Part shown: piece after piece, positions 1,128 through 10,814 of the stretch
How the letters are laid out: each line of letters starts with the position of its first letter
Position numbering within the stretch: position 1 is the first letter of the stretch
From: an uncultured Propionibacteriaceae bacterium
GTDB lineage: Bacteria > Actinomycetota > Actinomycetes > Propionibacteriales > Propionibacteriaceae
DNA: 12,163 nucleotides
Assembly (NCBI GenBank): GCA_937859105.1
Contig: CALMAD010000097.1
Coordinates: 1-12,163, forward strand
Reading direction: 5' to 3'
Notes under the pieces: model-generated
Databases searched by the model: none
The model's input: only the letters and a program-made list of their open reading frames with translations
What the model was told of the DNA's origin: nothing
Made by a program: the position numbers and the translations under genes

Positions 1128-1156
1128 CCCGAGTGGCCGGGCGCCGCGCGGGTCAG
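1124..1156. terminator. Bidirectional hairpin between convergent lactonase and otsA genes
   Basis: CTGACCCG (1124-1131) and CGGGTCAG (1149-1156) are perfect 8-bp inverted arms around a 17-nt G+C-rich loop. The lactonase TGA (1125-1127) lies in the left arm and the otsA stop (read as TCA at 1153-1155 on the plus strand) lies in the right arm, so one hairpin can serve both convergent transcripts. No U-tract follows, as is common for actinobacterial terminators. Confidence 0.6.
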
Positions 1157-2592
1157 TCGGCGTCCGGCTCGTCGGGGTCGTGGACGGCCAGGTCGTGCAG
1201 GAAGGTCTCCGCCCAGCGGTTGATGTCGTGGGTGAAGACCTGCCGGCGCAGCGCGCGCATGCGCCGGCGCTTGCGGTCGGGCGAATCGTTCATCGCCTGC
1301 AGGATCGTCTCTTTCATGCCGTTGATGTCGTATGGGTTCACCTGGTAGCTGCGCTTCAGTTCGAGCGCGGCGCCGGCGAACTCGCTGAGCACGAGCGCGC
1401 CCGTGTTCCCGGGGCGGCAGGCGAGGTACTCCTTCGCGACCAGGTTCATGCCGTCGCGCAGGGGCGTCACCACCATCACGTCGGCGATCCGGTACATCGC
1501 GGCCATCTCGGCTCGCGGCAGCGAGGTGTGCAGGTAGGTGATGGGGGCGCGTCCGACACGACCCATGTCGCCGTTGATGCGCCCGACCAGCAGTTCGATG
1601 TCGTCGCGGAGCCGCTTGTACTCCTCGACGCGTTCGCGGGACGGCGTCGCCACCTGCACGAACACCGCCTCGTCGGGGTCGAGCTCGCCGTCCTTGAAGA
1701 GCTCGCCGAACGCGCGGATTCGCTGCCGCAGGCCCTTCGTGTAGTCGAGGCGGTCGACGCCGAAGAAGACGGTCTTGGCGTCCAACTCCTGGCGGAGCTC
1801 CTTGGCCCGGGCGACGACCTCGGGCGAGTTCGACAGCGACTCGAACGCTTCGGAGTCGATGGAGATCGGGTAGGCGGCCGCGCGGGCGTGGCGTCCGTCG
1901 GGGGTGGAGAACCCGTCGCGCTTCGTCGCGTAGCCGAGCGCGGTGCGCAGGAGGCGGAGGTAGTTGTGGGCGGCGCTCGGCGTCTGGAATCCGACGAGGT
2001 CGGAGCCGGCCAGGCCCTCCAGGATCTGCCGGCGCCACGGCAGCTGCTGGAACAGCTCGGCCGGTGGGAACGGGATGTGGAGGAAGAACCCGATCTTCAG
2101 ATCCGGGCGCTGGTCGCGGAGCATCTGGGGGACGAGCTGCAACTGGTAGTCCTGCACCCAGACGGTGGCGTCCGGCTCCGCGGTCTGGGCCGCGGCGTCC
2201 GCGAAGCGACGATTGATGGCGACGTACGCGTCCCACCACTCGCGGTGGAACTCGGGGAACGCGACCGAGTCGTGGTACAGCGGCCAGAGCGTCGCGTTCG
2301 ACATGCCCTCGTAGTACTCCTCGACCTCGCCCGCCGAAAGCGGCACGGGGACGAGCTTGATGCCGTCGGCCTCGAACGGGCTGAGCGTCTCGTCGGGGGC
2401 GCCGTGCCACCCGATCCACGCGCCCTCGTTCGCCTTCATGACCGGTTCGAGGGCCGTGACGAGCCCGCCGGGCGCGGTTCGCCAGGAGGTTTCGCCGTCG
2501 TTCTGCACCCGCTCGACCGGCAGGCGGTTCGCCACGACGACGAACGATGCTGTGTAGCTTTCAGGGGACCCGTTGGAAGAATTGCCGTTCAC
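1153..2592 (-). CDS. otsA: Alpha,alpha-trehalose-phosphate synthase (UDP-forming), OtsA
   Basis: A GT20 retaining glycosyltransferase that transfers glucose from UDP-glucose to glucose-6-phosphate, giving trehalose-6-phosphate in the cytoplasm. Visible signatures, numbered from the chosen start: ANRLPVE (21-27), WIGWHG (59-64), WPLYH (103-107), VQDYQL with the active-site Asp (146-151), FFLHIPFP (169-176), DRLDYTKG with the sugar-nucleotide Arg and Lys (280-287), [13 protein letters not shown] (377-389) and LSEFAGAA. The length, 479 residues, suits the family. The GTG at 2592 is chosen because GGAGGTGG stands 6 nt upstream; an in-frame TTG at 2634 would add 14 residues and bury that ribosome site in the coding sequence. 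otsB lies divergently 69 bp away and supplies the next step, so the pair forms a complete trehalose pathway. The catalytic residues are intact. Confidence 0.96.
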
Positions 2593-2661
2593 TTCGCCCA
2601 CCTCCACCCCTAACTTAGGAACTGCAAGGCTCAACCGCTACCCACTTTGAGGGGGACGCCC
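2593..2661. promoter_or_regulatory. Divergent otsA/otsB control region with palindrome CCTAACTTAGG
   Basis: This 69-bp gap must hold the start signals of both trehalose genes unless they are read from elsewhere. It contains the palindrome CCTAACTTAGG at 2609-2619 (arms CCTAA/TTAGG with one central base). On the plus strand TAACTT (2611-2616) fits a TAnnnT -10 element for otsB, with TTCACT (2589-2594) 16 bp upstream as a poor -35. The palindrome gives TAAGTT on the other strand, but that would start otsA mRNA at its ribosome site, so it is less convincing there. Promoter assignment is tentative. Confidence 0.35.
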
Positions 2662-3483
2662 GTGTCCATCGTCACCGAAGAGGGACGCCGCGCCTGGCAG
2701 TCCATCGTCGCGAACCCGGGCGGGACGCTGCTCTGCAGCGACTTCGACGGGGTGCTGTCGCCGATCGTCCTGAACCCCGACGAGGCGTACGCCGACCCGG
2801 CGACCATCGCCGCGCTGAGCCGGCTGGGCGGCGTCCTGGGGAAGATCGCGATCGTCACCGGACGCGTCGCGCGCAAAGCCGTGCAGCTCGGCCGGCTCGA
2901 CGGGGACGCCGGGCTGCGGGGCATGTCGGTGCTCGGGTTGTACGGGCAGGAGCGGTGGGACGCCGCGTCCGGGGAGTATCTGGAGCCCGAGCCGCCCGCG
3001 GGGCTGGAGGACGTGAAGGCCGAGCTGCCGGGGGTGCTGCGTGCGGCCGGCGTCGAGGCGGCGCGGGTGGAGGACAAGCGGCTGTCGATCGGCGTCCACA
3101 CGCGCGCGCTGCCCGACCCGGCTGGGGCGTTCGCCGCCCTGGAGGGGCCTGTGTACGAGCTGGCCGCGCGGCACGGGCTCGTCGTCGAGCCGGGGAAGAA
3201 CGTGCTGGAGATCCGTGGGGAGGGCGTCGACAAGGGGGACGCCGTCCGGGCGCTCGTGGGGGAGGTGCGCCCGGCGGTGGTGATCTTCGCCGGCGACGAC
3301 CTGGGCGACGTGGCCGCCTTCCGGGCGGTGAGGGAACTGCGTCGTGAGGGCCTGAAGGGGCTGCTGATCTGCTCCGGATCCGACGAGCAGGACGCCCTGG
3401 TCGAGCTGGCCGACGTCGTCGTCGACGGTCCGGCGGGGGTGGCGAGGTTGTTTGCCGAACTCGCCGACGCGTTGGGTGTGTGA
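2662..3483 (+). CDS. otsB: Trehalose-6-phosphate phosphatase, OtsB
   Basis: A HAD-superfamily phosphatase (type IIB cap) that removes phosphate from trehalose-6-phosphate to give trehalose, the second step after OtsA. With the start chosen here (273 residues) the motifs are: motif I CSDFDGVLSPI with nucleophile Asp27 and acid/base Asp29, motif II IVTGR (64-68), a GLYGQER stretch (92-98) typical of OtsB, motif III Lys in GVDKG (188-192) and motif IV AGDDLGD (210-216). The GTG at 2662 has GAGGGGG about 7 nt upstream. An in-frame TTG at 2647 overlaps that ribosome site and is rejected. The DGT of canonical motif I is DGV here, which keeps the essential Asp residues. It is divergent from otsA and convergent with the PaaX-type gene. 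Confidence 0.95.
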   Translation: MSIVTEEGRRAWQSIVANPGGTLLCSDFDGVLSPIVLNPDEAYADPATIAALSRLGGVLGKIAIVTGRVARKAVQLGRLDGDAGLRGMSVLGLYGQERWDAASGEYLEPEPPAGLEDVKAELPGVLRAAGVEAARVEDKRLSIGVHTRALPDPAGAFAALEGPVYELAARHGLVVEPGKNVLEIRGEGVDKGDAVRALVGEVRPAVVIFAGDDLGDVAAFRAVRELRREGLKGLLICSGSDEQDALVELADVVVDGPAGVARLFAELADALGV

Positions 3484-3489
3484 GGTGGG

Positions 3490-3527
3490 GTGAGGCGTCC
3501 TGCCGTTGAAGGGCAGAATTGCCTCAC
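3490..3527. terminator. Bidirectional hairpin between otsB and the paaX-like gene
   Basis: GTGAGGC (3490-3496) pairs with GCCTCAC (3521-3527), and inside it CTGCC (3500-3504) pairs with GGCAG (3512-3516) around a GTTGAAG loop. The otsB stop ends 7 nt before the stem. The stop codon of the convergent gene (TCA at 3524-3526 on the plus strand) lies within the right arm. The position and two-part stem support a shared terminator. Confidence 0.65.
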
Positions 3528-4456
3528 TGGAGCGTGCTCGGGGGGCGGCCGAGGAGGCCGCCGACGCGGAGGCGTCCGCTGAGGTGGGGGGCCTCCTCGG
3601 CGATCAGATCGTCCAGGGCCGACTGAGCGCCCGGCAGGGTGGCGCGGAAGAGCCGCTGGAAGAGTTCGGACGCCGCCAGGGCTCCGTGACCGGGCGGAAG
3701 CAATTCGTCGGGGAGGTCCGGGTCTTGCCACGGGGACGCCCGCCAGGCGTCCACCACCCGGATGTTCGCCGCGAACGCGTCCGCCGGTGCCAGTGACCCG
3801 CTTTCGGCGTCCCGGGCGAGCGAGCCGAAGGCGTCCAGGAAGGGCTCGTAGACGCGCGCGAGTTCGTCGAGATCCCAGGCGGTGAGCGGATCGACGCCGA
3901 CGAGTTCGTCGGCGTCCACGCGCACCGCCAGGTAGTCGCTCACGGCGTTCTCGGCGAAGAGCCGGCGTACCTCCTCGAGGCCGACGCGTGCCGAGACCCA
4001 CATGCCGGCCGGTAGGTGGCCGAAGCCGCGCCACTTCAGACCGTGACGGAGGCGGTCGCGGCGCGCGCGGTCGCCCTCGGGGACGCTGAAGCAGACGCAG
4101 GTCCACCGCCGATCCCACGCCCGTGCGGCCCGGAAGTCGGCGACTTGACGCATGCCGCGCACCATCCGCTGCTCGGCCTCGGGGGTGAGGCGGTACTCGG
4201 AACGCGTCCCCTGCTGACGCTGCGCGAGAAGCCCGCGCGTGGTCAGACGGCTCAGGCCGCTCTGCGCCGAACTGGGCGTCACCCCCAGGAGCCGGGCGCA
4301 GCGTGCCAGGAGACGCGACGGCAGCCACGTTGCGCCCCACAGCTCGCTGACAAGGGTGAACAGTAAGTGCTGGGTGCCGGAGCCGCGGCGTCCGGGACGC
4401 GGGAAGTCCAGTTCGGCGCCCGAGATGGTCGCGGGTGCACCGTCGGGACTCGTCAC
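3524..4456 (-). CDS. PaaX-family transcriptional repressor
   Basis: The 310-residue product has the PaaX layout. There is an N-terminal winged helix-turn-helix (about 29-95, with LGVTPSSAQSGLSRLTTRGLL as the likely reading helix and wing), then the family-typical central block starting WDRRWTCVCFSVPEG (114-128) and reaching GFGHLPAGMWVSAR (144-157). A C-terminal region follows with WDLDELARVYEPFL (194-207) and LPDELLPPGHG (248-258). PaaX itself represses phenylacetate catabolism and is released by phenylacetyl-CoA. No paa catabolic genes are present here, so this paralogue probably answers to another acid or acyl-CoA. It is divergent from the MHS transporter/hydrolase operon, which is its most likely target. 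GTG at 4456 is the only usable start because an in-frame TAG lies at 4468-4466. The strong ribosome site is 18 nt away, an odd spacing treated separately. Confidence 0.88.
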   Translation of the reverse strand: MTSPDGAPATISGAELDFPRPGRRGSGTQHLLFTLVSELWGATWLPSRLLARCARLLGVTPSSAQSGLSRLTTRGLLAQRQQGTRSEYRLTPEAEQRMVRGMRQVADFRAARAWDRRWTCVCFSVPEGDRARRDRLRHGLKWRGFGHLPAGMWVSARVGLEEVRRLFAENAVSDYLAVRVDADELVGVDPLTAWDLDELARVYEPFLDAFGSLARDAESGSLAPADAFAANIRVVDAWRASPWQDPDLPDELLPPGHGALAASELFQRLFRATLPGAQSALDDLIAEEAPHLSGRLRVGGLLGRPPSTLQ

Positions 4457-4587: not shown

Positions 4588-5964
4588 ATGAGCACAGAGT
4601 CCCCCTCGGAGTTGGCCTCGCACGAACCCGTCGCGCCGGGCCCGGACGCCGACCACGCATCCTCCGCGCGACGCGCGGCCGTGGCCGCCTTCGTCGGCGG
4701 CACGCTGGAGTACTACGACTTCTTCCTGTACGTGTCGGCGTCCGCGCTGGTCTTCAACGAACTGTTCTTCCCACAGGTCGACGGACGCCTCGGGCAGGTG
4801 CTCTCGATGGCGACGATCGGCATCGGGTACGTCGTCCGGCCGCTGGCGGCCGTCGTGATCGGCCACCTGGGCGACCGGGTGAGCCGCAAGAAGATGCTGC
4901 TCTTCACGCTCCTGTTGATGGGCATCTCGACCACCGCGATCGGTCTGTTGCCGACCGCGCAGCAGATCGGCCCGGCCGCGGCGGTGCTGCTGGTCCTGCT
5001 GCGGGTGTGCCAGGGGATCTCGGCCGCCGGCGAGTCGGCCGGCGCCGCGACGATGGCGCTCGAGCACGCCCCCGAGGGTAAGCGCGGTTTCTACACGAGC
5101 TTCGTCAACACCGGGACGGTGTTCGGCGTCATGCTGTCGTCGCTCGCGTTCCTTCTCGTGTCGCTGCTGCCGCGCGAGCAGTTCCTGGCCTGGGGGTGGC
5201 GACTGCCGTTCCTTCTCAGCATCGTCGTCGCGTTCATCGGATTGTGGATCCGACGGACGCTGCCCGAGCCGGAGGTCTTCGAGCAGGTCCTCGAAGAGGA
5301 GGAGCAGACGAAGACGACCTGGCGCGAGTGGCCGCTGGTCGTCGTCTTCCGGCAGCACTGGCGCCGCGTGCTGGTCGGCATCGGCATCTACCTCGTGTCG
5401 GTCGTGTCGTCGATCTTCAGCGCGTTCGTGCTCTCGTACGGCGTCCGGTCCCTGCACATCGCCCAGCCCATCATGCTGGGCATGAACATCCTGACCGCCT
5501 TCCTCGGCATGTGCTTCCAGCCCATCGCCGGGCGCATCGCGGATCGCTTCGGCAGGAAACCGGTGTTCATGCTCGGATCGGTACTGAGCGCGGGCAGCAT
5601 CTTCTTCTTGCTGTGGTCCATGGGGACGGGCAGCATCGTCCTCATGTATCTCGGAGGCATCAGCCTGATGTCCATCTCGTACGGGCTGGTCAACGCCCTG
5701 TTCCCGCTGCTGCTGGGTGAGCTGTTCGAGACCGAGGTGCGGTTCTCCGGGGCGGCCATCACCAGCCAGCTCGCGCTCATCGTGACCGGATTCGCGCCGG
5801 CGATCGCGGCGTCCATTCAGGGCAGCGGACCGCAGGGCTGGCTGCCGGTCGCCACGGCGACGGCGGGCGCCTGCCTGGTGTCCGCCATGGTGACGGGCCT
5901 GTTCCTCAAGGAGACCTACCGCACGGACACCGCGCGACTGGGTCGGGAGGTGGCGGCCCGATGA
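4588..5964 (+). CDS. MFS transporter, metabolite:H+ symporter (MHS) family
   Basis: A 458-residue, roughly 12-helix inner-membrane symporter. The first helix region GTLEYYDFFLYVSASALVFNE (from residue 38) is the hallmark of the MHS family, whose characterised members carry organic acids and osmolytes such as shikimate, citrate, alpha-ketoglutarate and proline/betaine. Other signatures are GHLGDRVSRKK (92-102) in the 2-3 loop, RVCQGISAAGESAGA (139-153), GWRLPFLLS (203-211), a charged central loop at 226-258, the second-half repeat GRIADRFGRKP (315-325) and ELFETEVRFSGAA (378-390). The ATG at 4588 has AAGGAG 5 nt upstream, whereas upstream in-frame GTG codons lack support. The stop overlaps the following hydrolase start (ATGA), so the two are translationally coupled. 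The substrate cannot be read from sequence; the partner enzyme suggests an acid or ester. Confidence 0.92.
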   Translation: MSTESPSELASHEPVAPGPDADHASSARRAAVAAFVGGTLEYYDFFLYVSASALVFNELFFPQVDGRLGQVLSMATIGIGYVVRPLAAVVIGHLGDRVSRKKMLLFTLLLMGISTTAIGLLPTAQQIGPAAAVLLVLLRVCQGISAAGESAGAATMALEHAPEGKRGFYTSFVNTGTVFGVMLSSLAFLLVSLLPREQFLAWGWRLPFLLSIVVAFIGLWIRRTLPEPEVFEQVLEEEEQTKTTWREWPLVVVFRQHWRRVLVGIGIYLVSVVSSIFSAFVLSYGVRSLHIAQPIMLGMNILTAFLGMCFQPIAGRIADRFGRKPVFMLGSVLSAGSIFFLLWSMGTGSIVLMYLGGISLMSISYGLVNALFPLLLGELFETEVRFSGAAITSQLALIVTGFAPAIAASIQGSGPQGWLPVATATAGACLVSAMVTGLFLKETYRTDTARLGREVAAR

Positions 5965-8015: not shown

Positions 8016-9665
8016 CTAAGCGTCCAGCAGCCTCAGTCCGCGGTCGGCGTCCGGGGCGAGCACCAACCGACGATCGAGGCCGAGGCGTCCGAAGACGTGC
8101 TCGTCGTGGCTCACGACCAGCAGCCCACCGCGGTAGGCGGCGAGGGCGTCCACGAGTTGGTCGACGCTGGCGAGGTCGAGGTTGTTGGTGGGCTCGTCCA
8201 GCACGAGCAACTGCGGGGGCGGGTCGGCCAGCAGGAGCCGCGCCAGGCATACCCGGAACCGCTCGCCGCCGGAGAGCCCTCCGACCAGGCGTTCCACCTC
8301 GTCCCCGCGGAACAGGAACCGCGCCAGCCGGGCCCGCACCTCTCCCGGCGGGACGCCCGGCGCCGCCGTCCGGACGTTGTCCAGCACGCTCGCACCGTCG
8401 TCGAGGGCGTCCAGCCGCTGCGGCAGGTAGCCGATGCGTTCGGTGTGCGCACGGGCCGTCGGCCGGCGCAGTCGCCCGTCCGCGGCGTCCGTCGGGTGGT
8501 CGCCCGGGAGGATGGGCGCCGGCTCGGGCGCCGTGCCCGTGACCAGCTCGGTGAGCAGCAGGGTCTTCCCGACGCCGTTGGCGCCGGTCAGGGCCCACCG
8601 CTCGGGCCCGGCCAGGACGAACGTCGTGTCGGCGTCCGCCAACTCGGCCAGCCGGCGTCCGGACGCCACCCCGGGGTCGGGCAGGTCCACCCGGATCCGC
8701 ACGTCGTCGCGCACCGCCTCTTCCGCGGCCGCCACCGCCTCGCGCGCCTCCGCCTCCCGGGACGCCGCGGTGGCCCGCTCGACGGCGCCCGCCTTCTCCG
8801 CCCGGTTGCGGAAGTAGTCCACCCCGCCCTTGCCGAGGCCCGAGCTCGCCTGCGTGGTGGCGGCGTACCGCTGCCGCTTCGCCTGCCGTGCCTGCAGCTC
8901 GATGCGCTGACGCTTCTCGGCGGCGAGCCGGCGCTCGGCGTCCGCGAGGTCGCGGCGGGCGGCGTCCTGCTGCCGGGCGAGATGCTCGCGGAACGCCGAG
9001 TACCCGCCGCCGAAGACGGTCAGCGACCCGCCGCGCACCTCGACCGTCGCGTCCAGCCGGTCGAGCAGCGCGACGTCGTGGCTGACCACGAGCAGGTTGC
9101 CGCGCCAGGCGTCCACGAGGGTGTACAGGCGCTCGCGGGCGGCGGCGTCCAGGTTGTTGGTGGGTTCGTCCAGGCAGACGACGTCGTCGCCGGCCAGTTG
9201 GAGGCCGGCGACGGCGGCCAGCATGGCCTCGCCGCCCGAGAGCGTCCCGACGCGGCGGTCGAGCGCCAGGTGCCCCAACCCGGCGACGGCCAGCACGGCG
9301 GAGGTGCGCGCCTCGACGTCCCAGTCGTCGGCGAGCTCGTCGAAGCGGTCGGGGGAGGCGTCGCCGGCCTCGATCGCGCGGAGCGCGTCGAGCTTCGTCC
9401 GGACGCCGAGCAGGTCGGCCAGAGTGGCGTCCTTCTCGAGCGTCAGCCGTTGCGTCAGGACGCCGACCGTGCCGGCGACGTCCACCACCCCCGACGTGGG
9501 GGAGACGTCGCCGCTGACCAGGCGCACCAGCGTGGTCTTGCCGGAGCCGTTGTCGCCGACGATGCCGGTGCGTCCGGACGAGAACGACGCCGTGACGGCG
9601 TCCAGAATGGTCGAGCCGTCGGGCCAGGTGAGCGTGACGTCGTGGAGCGTGACGGGGTGCTGCAT
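8016..9665 (-). CDS. ABC-F family ATP-binding protein (ribosome-protection type)
   Basis: A 549-residue protein with two ABC domains and no membrane segments. Domain 1 has Walker A GDNGSGKTT (37-45), signature LSGGE (142-146) and Walker B VVCLDEPTNNLD (162-173). Domain 2 has GANGVGKTLL (361-370), LSGGERFR (464-471) and LLVLDEPTNNLD (487-498). The charged, Arg/Lys-rich linker at about 228-320 (for example KRQRIELQARQAKRQR) is the interdomain arm that in ABC-F proteins reaches the ribosomal P/E site. Members act on the ribosome, either as translation factors or by displacing macrolides, lincosamides, pleuromutilins and related drugs. ATG at 9665 has CAGGAG 6 nt upstream; an in-frame reading upstream to 9836 lacks such support and crosses the leader region. 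The leader peptide and RNA structures upstream favour an antibiotic-inducible resistance role over a housekeeping one. The drug class cannot be told from sequence. Confidence 0.92.
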   Translation of the reverse strand: MQHPVTLHDVTLTWPDGSTILDAVTASFSSGRTGIVGDNGSGKTTLVRLVSGDVSPTSGVVDVAGTVGVLTQRLTLEKDATLADLLGVRTKLDALRAIEAGDASPDRFDELADDWDVEARTSAVLAVAGLGHLALDRRVGTLSGGEAMLAAVAGLQLAGDDVVCLDEPTNNLDAAARERLYTLVDAWRGNLLVVSHDVALLDRLDATVEVRGGSLTVFGGGYSAFREHLARQQDAARRDLADAERRLAAEKRQRIELQARQAKRQRYAATTQASSGLGKGGVDYFRNRAEKAGAVERATAASREAEAREAVAAAEEAVRDDVRIRVDLPDPGVASGRRLAELADADTTFVLAGPERWALTGANGVGKTLLLTELVTGTAPEPAPILPGDHPTDAADGRLRRPTARAHTERIGYLPQRLDALDDGASVLDNVRTAAPGVPPGEVRARLARFLFRGDEVERLVGGLSGGERFRVCLARLLLADPPPQLLVLDEPTNNLDLASVDQLVDALAAYRGGLLVVSHDEHVFGRLGLDRRLVLAPDADRGLRLLDA

Positions 9666-9780
9666 GAGGGTCTCCTGAGGTCGGGTGCGCCGACCGGAGC
9701 CCTGCGGGCAGCGTCGGTTCAGCGCGGGATGAGCGGGCGAACCAGGAGATCGGTCACGGCGAGGATCCTCCTCGGGAGGC
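9666..9780 (-). promoter_or_regulatory. Attenuator-like mRNA leader of the ABC-F gene
   Basis: Reading the minus strand: the leader ORF's ribosome site GAGGAGG (9773-9767) lies in a small hairpin (CGAGGA/TCCTCG, 9774-9760). TCTCCTG inside the leader ORF (9749-9743) is an exact complement of CAGGAGA (9677-9671), the ABC-F ribosome site. Between them, GGTCGG (9695-9690) can pair either upstream with CCGAC (9717-9713, inner stem GCCC/GGGC) or downstream with CCGACC (9684-9679), and these two choices exclude each other. That is the layout of a ribosome-stalling switch. No folding energies were calculated. Confidence 0.55.
9719..9757 (-). CDS. Leader peptide MTDLLVRPLIPR upstream of the ABC-F gene
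   Basis: A 12-codon ORF starts at GTG 9757, 9 nt after a near-perfect GAGGAGG ribosome site, and ends at TGA 9719, 53 nt before the ABC-F ATG. The product MTDLLVRPLIPR is rich in Leu, Arg and Pro, residues often found in drug-dependent stalling peptides. Codons 3-5 contain the exact complement of the ABC-F ribosome site. Ribosomes stalled there by a drug would prevent that pairing. ABC-F and erm-type resistance genes are commonly controlled by such uORFs. The small size means chance cannot be excluded, but the ribosome site, position and pairing agree. Confidence 0.6.
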   Translation of the reverse strand: MTDLLVRPLIPR

Positions 9781-9896
9781 AATACGACCCACCCAGTGTC
9801 ACTCATCCATCCGCGTTTGCCCAACTCGGCGGTCACGCGCCGGCCGCATATTTCCGCAAAGTGGACGTGTGGTAATTCCCGGCGGGAGGCGCTAAC

Positions 9897-9915
9897 TTAG
9901 GTGCGCCTTACCTAA
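9897..9915. promoter_or_regulatory. DtxR/IdeR-type iron box upstream of efeU
   Basis: TTAGGTGCGCCTTACCTAA matches the actinobacterial iron-box consensus TTAGGTTAGSCTAACCTAA at 16 of 19 positions, with both outer arms intact. It lies 29 nt before the efeU ATG. TAACTT (9893-9898) could be the -10 element and overlaps the box by two bases, so binding of the Fe(II)-loaded repressor would block RNA polymerase. This predicts expression of the operon under iron limitation. No good -35 is seen at the matching distance. Confidence 0.85.
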
Positions 9916-9944
9916 CAAGGCGCATCCAGCAGAAAGACGAACCC

Positions 9945-10814
9945 ATGCTCGGCAACTTCCTGATCGGCCTCCGCGAGGGGCTGGAGGCGGCGCTCGTCGT
10001 CAGCATCCTCGTGGCGTACCTCGTCAAGAGCGGCCGCCGCGGCCTCCTGCCGCGCGTGTGGCTGGGCGTGGGCATCGCGGTGGCCGTGTCGCTCGCGTTC
10101 GGGGCGGTCCTGACGTTCGGCCCCAAGGGCCTCACGTTCGAGGCGCAGGAGATCATCGGCGGGACGCTATCGATCGTCGCCGTCGGCCTCGTCACGTGGA
10201 TGATCTTCTGGATGGCCCGCAGCGCCCGGACGCTCTCCGGCGAGCTCCGCGCCCAGGTGGACGCCGCCGCCGACGCCCGCCCGTGGTCGCTCACCCTCAT
10301 CGCGTTGCTCGCGGTCGGTCGCGAGGGGCTGGAGACCGCCCTGTTCCTCTGGGCCGCGACCCAGGCGGCCACGCGCACGGGCGGTTCGGCGACGAACCCC
10401 CTGCTCGGAGCCCTGTTGGGGCTCGCGGTCGCGGTCGTGCTGGGCTACCTGTTCTACCGCGGCGCGATCCGCATCAACCTGTCGCGGTTCTTCGCCTGGA
10501 CCGGCGGGTTCCTCGTGCTGGTCGCCGCCGGGGTGCTGGCGTACGGCGTCCACGACCTGCAGGAGGCCCGCGTCCTGCCCGGTCTGAACGACCTCGCGTT
10601 CGACGTCAGCCACGTCATCGCGCCCGGCTCGCTGGTCGGCGCGCTGCTCAAGGGCGTCTTCAACTTCTCCCCGGCCACGACCAAGGTCGAGGCCGTCGTC
10701 TGGGTGCTGTACGTGGTGCCCACCCTGTACTTCTTCGTCCGGGCGATGCGGCGCAAGCCGGACGCCCCGGCGCGGCCGGCGTCCGAACCGGCCGTCGCAG
10801 CGACCGGCCGCTGA
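9945..10814 (+). CDS. efeU: Iron permease EfeU (FTR1/OFeT family)
   Basis: A 289-residue integral membrane protein with about seven helices. It carries both iron-permeation motifs of the family: R-E-G-L-E at residues 10-14 in the first helix and again at 126-130 in the fourth, whose Glu residues bind iron in FTR1/EfeU. Helices are visible at about 5-27, 38-58, 70-92, 115-140, 152-172, 183-203 and 248-266, and the C-terminal tail is short and cytosolic. EfeU takes up iron across the plasma membrane together with EfeO and the DyP peroxidase EfeB. The ATG at 9945 has only a weak ribosome site (AGAAAGA), but it places LREGLE at the usual distance from the N-terminus. It is the first gene of the iron-box operon; efeO follows after 67 bp. 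Confidence 0.95.

Follow-up and report, generated by a model that had tools for sequence, protein, structure and literature searches.

A probable translational attenuator upstream of an actinobacterial ABC-F gene, with a conserved RNA layout and a variable leader peptide

The region at positions 9666–9788 on the minus strand of the DNA analysed here (12,163 nucleotides from an uncultured Propionibacteriaceae bacterium, hereafter the window) is probably a translational attenuator of the adjoining ABC-F gene, one that responds when a ribosome is halted over the first codons of its short leader; we put the probability of this reading at roughly three in four. In the proposed mechanism four RNA segments compete. 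Segments A (the first leader codons) and C (in the spacer) are each complementary to segment D, which carries the Shine–Dalgarno (SD) sequence of the ABC-F gene, and segment B (the leader end) can pair with either A or C. Because the partners overlap, these pairings exclude one another. In free mRNA the SD would be closed, either as C:D together with A:B or as A:D around B:C. A ribosome reaching the leader stop would cover B, and C (and A) would then close the SD; only one held on about codons 1–5 would cover A and still leave B free to take C, and the SD would open. The scheme supposes that the leader is translated and that B:C is captured during transcription, and its inducers would be drugs that arrest ribosomes on the start codon, namely lincosamides, streptogramin A and pleuromutilins. 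The recurrent position of the leader, the four predicted pairings and the linkage to ABC-F genes were established by comparing the sequences of related loci.

The ABC-F gene, its leader and the likely transcript start

The ABC-F ATPase gene lies on the minus strand at 8016–9665 (ATG 9665–9663) and encodes 549 amino acids. The chain has two ABC domains (PF00005 in two stretches) and matched no membrane-domain family, and ABC-F proteins are its top matches in the PDB. It scored 274.2 bits against NF000355 (ribosomal protection-like ABC-F), under the cut-off of 380. A 115-protein tree places the window's protein in a 65-row clade (support 99) beside clades with MLV and DDISG leaders, the joining branch having a support of 27, and the window groups with five genes with MTD-starting leaders at support 99. 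The gene is probably an antibiotic-resistance gene, and its protein a candidate member of ARE5. Within the family, 103 of the 197 genomes contain a homologue at E ≤ 1e-60, a repeat of the family search at larger n adding one genome, and the best named relatives are in Propionicimonas, Propionibacterium, Ancrocorticia, Isoptericola and Microbacterium. The source contig (C97) belongs to an incomplete genome (73.85% complete, 486 contigs).

Elsewhere in the window we noted a glycosyltransferase family 20 gene of the OtsA type (1153–2634, minus strand), a trehalose-phosphatase gene (2647–3483, plus strand), a PaaX-like regulator gene (3524–4456, minus strand) and an MFS transporter gene on the plus strand that ends at 5964. 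Beyond the attenuator region, efeU and efeO begin at 9945 on the opposite strand, and just upstream of them a near-perfect palindrome (TTAGGTGCGCCTTACCTAA, 9897–9915) resembles an iron-regulator (DtxR/IdeR) box.

Upstream of the ABC-F gene the window carries the leader ORF MTDLLVRPLIPR, 12 codons on the minus strand at 9719–9757 (GTG 9757–9755 to TGA 9721–9719), with the ribosome site GAGGAGG (9773–9767) 9 nt before the GTG, just as the preliminary description had reported. An attenuator of this kind is expected to have just such a short ORF, preceded by a ribosome site of its own, ahead of the gene it regulates. Farther upstream on the same strand are a −35-like TTGGGC (9819–9824), which together with its next bases (TTGGGCAAACGC) is also present in the related locus L002, and, at a spacing of 18 nt, a −10-like GACACT (9795–9800) that starts at −43 from the leader start and is not itself TANNNT. 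A sigma-70 consensus scan returned no site under its rule. Across the 95 nt upstream of 37 leaders of related loci, 18 of 23 TANNNT hits lie at −45 to −36 from the leader start. This recurrence of a −10-like site suggests that the transcript starts before the leader, near 9788 in the window, and so contains it; a start inside or beyond the leader, which the preliminary description had named as telling against an attenuator, is not where the sequence comparison points.

Conserved RNA and variable peptides among related loci

Upstream regions were taken from 90 loci (30 plus 60 fetched), and the gene start could be placed in 89. From these 89 family regions and the named loci, 40 leaders were set by hand at a time when the B and C motifs were already in view and A:D had not yet been examined. 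The leader rule gave none in 16 of the 89 regions; for seven of these a leader was set by eye (L009, L011, L021, L115, L117, L125 and L167, with L011 later dropped), and in L004, L005, L111 and L153 a start differing from that of the rule was used. Tests on 37 rows leave out L011, L033 and L036 (tandem or long spacer). A second set comprises 29 loci with 3–4-codon leaders, and 14 loci with other rule-given leaders are in neither set. A mechanical scan for SD-preceded short ORFs recovered the published MLV and (M)xGDDDISG leaders in relatives 40–46% identical to the window's protein, which gives the scan a positive control.

Several loci differ in spacer or leader length. In L011 (genome G129) the leader lies 137 nt upstream of the ABC-F gene and the spacer resembles the C–D hairpin duplicated in tandem, with two CTCCGG/TTCCGG..TCAGCGC..CTGA..GGAG units. 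The Microbacterium-type loci L033, L035, L041, L087, L207, L208, L211 and L212 have a CGCGCTGA..CGTCGA element; in most of them the spacer before the ABC-F gene is longer (roughly 80–160 nt by eye), and their layout may differ. In L121, L128, L134, L137, L149, L156 and 23 other loci, an ABC-F gene of the same family is preceded by a 3–4-codon leader (MTD, MKL, MDL or MSL).

The leaders of the 37 loci have 6–16 codons, and their stop codons begin 51–77 nt before the ABC-F gene. The peptides themselves vary widely (among them MTDLIGTAPLR, MTDRSSR, MLIYDRLAASITR, MIDISAPVHR and MYADSSSAATQR); ten of the 37 start with MTD, eight with MLI, and 30 have Arg before the stop, beyond which we found no further motif shared among them. 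By comparison, 34 of 88 family upstream regions contain GCGCTGA between −130 and −40, whereas after shuffling it is found in 1.34 on average and in 4 at most. Of the 37 loci, 23 have it overlapping the leader stop, seven have it 10–11 nt past the stop, one has it inside the leader in another frame, and six have no exact copy. Since GCGCTGA is mostly kept, even past the leader stop, the Arg-stop ending of the peptides is best read as a coding shadow of an RNA element, GCGCUGA; at the level of sequence comparison the RNA is conserved and the peptide is not. The element also bears on the leader as an ORF: where an ATG or GTG with an SD match of at least 5 lies upstream of GCGCTGA, the start is in frame with its TGA and the ORF stops there in 17 of 20 locus-and-frame classes (p = 2.8e-6 if independent), which suggests that the leader ORF is real.

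These observations bear on the idea that the nascent MTDLLVRPLIPR peptide itself stalls the ribosome with one drug, a macrolide or similar, in the manner of ErmCL or MsrDL. Twelve codons would be long enough for an arrest peptide, judged by the known ones, and MsrDL and ErmCL are established cases (PMC10314930). Against this, the homologous leaders have no motif in common apart from the frequent MTD or MLI starts and the Arg-stop, the macrolide motif +x+ ([RK]x[RK]) is absent from the window's leader and present in one of the 37, and with the ribosome near the leader end the SD is predicted to be closed rather than opened (below). The LLVRP-like conservation that the preliminary description had anticipated was not found among homologues; with LLVRP not conserved and no common arrest motif, peptide-specific stalling is unlikely, and the amino-acid sequence of the leader probably matters little. 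For want of a common motif, macrolide-type or LLVRP-specific arrest was ruled out as the main reading. What the homologues do keep, on present comparison, is the position of the leader and the pairings.

Four RNA segments and their predicted pairings

In the window all four segments lie on the minus strand. Segment A (9738–9753), the first leader codons, is complementary to D and B. Segment B (9706–9725) consists of the leader-end GCGCTGA (9725–9719) and the following ACCGACGCTGCCC and is complementary to A and C. Segment C (9687–9702; GGGCTCCGGTCGGCGC) holds an anti-SD stretch and GGTCGG/TCGGCGC, and is supported by the window's hairpin in folding and by the C:D swap test. Segment D (9668–9684; CCGACCTCAGGAGACCC) contains the ABC-F SD, AGGAG (9676–9672), and is paired with C in the lowest-energy fold and with A in an alternative one. 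At base level, TCTCCTG in the leader (nucleotides 9–15, 9749–9743) is the exact complement of CAGGAGA (9677–9671), so the 7-nt complementarity between leader codons and ABC-F SD reported earlier holds, and GGTTC (9743–9739) in segment A is complementary to GAACC (9720–9716). The two partners proposed for GGTCGG were likewise recovered: GGTCGG (9695–9690) pairs downstream with CCGACC (9684–9679) in 6 bp closed by a 5-nt loop, and the overlapping TCGGCGC (9693–9687) pairs upstream with GCGCTGA (9725–9719) in 7 bp with one U-G.

Folding and covariation place the ABC-F SD in a predicted hairpin. In the window's lowest-energy fold it is held by C, and also by part of the leader when the RNA ends at the ATG. 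The full A:D arrangement comes to −43.6 against −44.1 kcal/mol for the best fold of the RNA to the ATG, and is 6 to 10 kcal/mol worse than the best fold with ABC-F codons included. Before D exists, the leader tail folds as B:C (−22.0).

We compared cognate partners with partners swapped between loci (n = 37, 5000 permutations). A:D scored −13.08 against −10.05 for swapped partners and C:D −21.76 against −17.79, neither equalled in 5000 permutations; A:B scored −12.65 against −11.49 (3/5000) and B:C −18.59 against −17.42 (8/5000). In the same 37 loci the non-partners A:C and B:D were null (3328 and 4751 of 5000), as were coding-sequence controls (1005, 3545, 4738, 4490 and 3949 of 5000) and controls from upstream of the leader (890 and 394 of 5000). 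One control was low too: the leader's own SD region gave 118/5000 against D, and against A it was worse than swapped (5000). Exact complementary runs of at least 7 between the first 20 leader nucleotides and the last 20 nt before the ABC-F gene are commoner than expected by chance: 8 of the 37 loci have one between cognate partners, compared with 4.0% of pairs after swapping. A:D and C:D are, on this comparison of sequences, the two best supported pairings. The match of leader codons to the SD in the earlier proposal is one of these two; in the lowest-energy fold the SD is held by C as well. In the 29 short-leader loci the first 20 nt of the leader also pair with the gene's SD (−14.54 against −11.60 swapped, 0/5000; controls, mid spacer 1193/5000, coding 190 and 4980).

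A structure-blind alignment lines up B as GCGCTGA(CCGTCGA), C as GGCTCCGG..TCAGCGC and D as CGCTGA..GGAG. In it, 84.8% of C:D cells are paired and 13 cells are changed on both sides, each reached in 0/500 shuffles, with 22–54% paired when the strands are slid; the numbers of C:D pairs and of pair types changed do not exceed those in shuffles (176 and 381 of 500). At one position of C:D the pair is A-U in 24 rows and G-C in ten, the window having the G-C kind, and segment B keeps a U able to face both A and G. With no structure supplied, RNAalifold returned only four pairs over the whole alignment, all of them B:C. B:C has 92.8% of its cells paired against 18–44% when slid and does not rise above column shuffles, because B is nearly invariant.

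Eight held-out loci (from other families or set aside) offered a further comparison. TC[AG]G[CT]G[CT] lies downstream in all eight and GCGCTGA at the leader end in seven; the ranks out of 38 were 8, 15, 7, 20, 10, 20, 2 and 9 for A:D and 20, 8, 14, 35, 9, 17, 1 and 1 for C:D. The held-out result is modest, and these loci back C:D only in part. Of seven later loci taken from covariance-model matches, six had a rule-given leader, with A:D ranks of 9, 1, 1, 6, 8 and 33 of 38; L269 had no leader by the rule and was left unranked. The leader of L265, MKLLVLR, repeats the window's CTCCTGG, there facing CCAGGAG.

An exact motif pattern proved unspecific (matched in 31 of 198 genomes, with 13 of the 35 matches listed adjoining an ABC-F gene, and its reversed form matched in nine genomes), and we therefore used in its place a covariance model built from the 37 loci and run on 198 genomes. 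At E < 1e-4 the model gives 39 matches, each immediately preceding an ABC-F gene; training loci account for 33 of them and six come from outside the alignment, and the window scores 55.6 bits. Down to E = 0.01 there are 57 matches, and of the 18 weaker ones three adjoin an ABC-F gene (in genomes G132, G098 and G036). The other 15 (E 4e-4 to 0.01; for example G080:C16:90659, G087:C380:272 and G194:C331:7511) are not beside ABC-F genes and are probably chance. The linkage of strong matches to ABC-F genes, the swap tests, the covariation and the GCGCTGA enrichment together disfavour a chance reading, in which the spacer would simply be GC-rich, its hairpins unremarkable and the short ORF spurious. 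The 151-nt region as a whole does not fold with unusual energy (z −1.22, with 21 of 200 shuffles equally good), and an Rfam scan of the window at the gathering threshold returned no family; we consider chance very improbable all the same.

Ribosome position and predicted opening of the SD

A ribosome footprint was moved codon by codon along the leader, on RNA ending at the ATG, and the cost of opening the SD was computed. For the 25 leaders of 10–13 codons the cost is 4.69–5.62 kcal/mol with the ribosome on codons 1–5, 6.59–7.69 on codons 6–10 and 7.84 on the last, with a mean of 7.38 kcal/mol in free RNA of all 37 loci. In the window it is 4.0–5.2 for codons 1–6, and 10.3 and 8.4 for the last two. 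The group difference, stop minus start, is 2.98 against −0.13 in shuffles (the largest of 40 shuffle group means being 0.45), and in a second group comparison, at the footprint setting, 2.25 against 0.08. With the ribosome at the leader stop, the window's cost of 8.51 kcal/mol was reached by none of 40 shuffles. In this model the releasing ribosome is predicted to sit on about the first five codons.

The effect depends on the length of RNA considered. Across loci it falls from 2.25 to 0.91 with longer RNA (footprint setting), and depending on setting, 2 to 9 of the 37 loci go in the opposite direction by more than 0.5. For the window's own RNA, SD release by alternative pairing is predicted only when the RNA ends at the ATG: early and late costs are 8.39 and 9.32 with 12 nt from the ABC-F start and 9.00 and 9.14 with 30 nt, and at equilibrium with ABC-F codons the SD is closed under a start-bound ribosome (9.26 against 8.51 kcal/mol at the stop). 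With these codons included, GCTGC in the spacer pairs with GCAGC of the first ABC-F codons, and B:C with an open SD is 11–13 kcal/mol worse than the best fold, compared with 2.6 kcal/mol for RNA ending at the ATG. We infer from the closed equilibrium state that the switch would have to act during transcription, or that the 30S subunit would break the extra pairing. The earlier proposal that a ribosome stalled on the leader frees the SD is supported, as far as sequence goes, by a leader position and pairings conserved with compensatory change, but not by equilibrium folding of the window's own RNA with ABC-F codons, in which the SD stays closed.

The hairpin might instead act on transcription: C:D (or another hairpin) would end it except when a ribosome has stalled on the leader, the arrangement found in lmrC and are5sc. 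Control of this kind is common among ABC-F genes (PMC8546547, PMC12421871). The predicted hairpin holds the SD itself, which fits translational control, and a terminator scan of 9600–9960 on both strands found no hairpin with U run between leader and gene, its sole site being 9951–9938, far upstream. An intrinsic terminator was therefore rejected, none satisfying the rule of the scan on the minus strand between leader and ABC-F gene, and transcriptional attenuation seems to us improbable.

A different possibility is that the leader responds to any slowing of early translation, whether from amino-acid shortage or another early block, and that the ABC-F protein is a translation factor and not a drug-resistance protein. 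The predicted opening follows ribosome position rather than peptide, and the NCBIfam cut-off for ribosomal protection is not reached, both as this would have it. Distant relatives with the published leader types, matched by leader sequence, are nevertheless ARE5 genes with drug-stalled leaders, and early codons vary among the 37 loci (position 2: T in 11, L in 10; position 3: D in 14, I in nine); we rate general sensing as unlikely. Under the preferred reading, an attenuator responding to drugs, the predicted release position coincides with the point where drugs act on related leaders: on the first codons of the are5sc and tiaA leaders, ribosomes are halted by lincosamides, streptogramin A and pleuromutilins but not by erythromycin (PMC12421871). 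The first three classes are hence the predicted inducers, and the modelled release position fits such start-stalling drugs rather than macrolides.

Relation to known attenuators and significance

The ermC attenuator is described with four numbered segments, and the action of ermCL depends on its peptide. As in the present proposal, stalling on the ermC leader refolds the mRNA and exposes the SD, but ermCL acts with erythromycin (PMC10219788), whereas in our loci the peptide varies freely and release would occur on the first codons. The Streptomyces coelicolor ARE5 leaders tiaA (MVGDDDISG) and are5sc (MLV) are likewise short, SD-preceded and placed before actinobacterial ABC-F genes; their peptides differ from the window's, are5sc acts by transcription, tiaA seems to be regulated at translation as proposed here, and the excerpted text describes for neither a four-segment A–D layout with GCGCUGA (PMC12421871). 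The cplR leader of Clostridioides difficile (uORF MRI) also has an anti-SD element and an SD in a hairpin, and translational attenuation has been shown there alongside transcriptional attenuation; cplR combines a leader of 3 codons with a poly-U terminator hairpin, whereas the window has 12 codons and no U run was found. In this respect the 3–4-codon leaders of our second set look closer to cplR than the window's leader does. The lmrC attenuator of Streptomyces lincolnensis, also before an actinobacterial ABC-F gene, senses a lincosamide, streptogramin A and a pleuromutilin, but differs in its premature terminator and in that disruption of uORF2 leads to constitutive expression. In the model, then, the window's attenuator would share with ermC, cplR and tiaA that leader translation decides SD opening, and would be set apart by the lack of a conserved peptide sequence, by its two anti-SD strands (A and C) and by the GCGCUGA element. 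We found no published description of this leader class in the open-access literature; some of its members may be among the ARE5 leaders tabulated in the PMC12421871 supplement.

A more specific version of the proposal, to which we give even chances, is a peptide-blind, double-locked sensor of start-codon stalls, in which leader codons and spacer are both anti-SD and both compete with the leader end, the SD becomes accessible solely with a ribosome on the first few codons, the amino acids are free, and GCGCUGA is kept before ABC-F genes across several actinobacterial families.

The covariance model could aid annotation. If the proposal is true, drug-inducible control of ABC-F genes would extend to a large actinobacterial group, the constraint on the RNA would account for the apparent lack of conservation among such leader peptides, and the anatomy of the leader would let the inducing drugs be predicted as those that stop ribosomes at its first codons.
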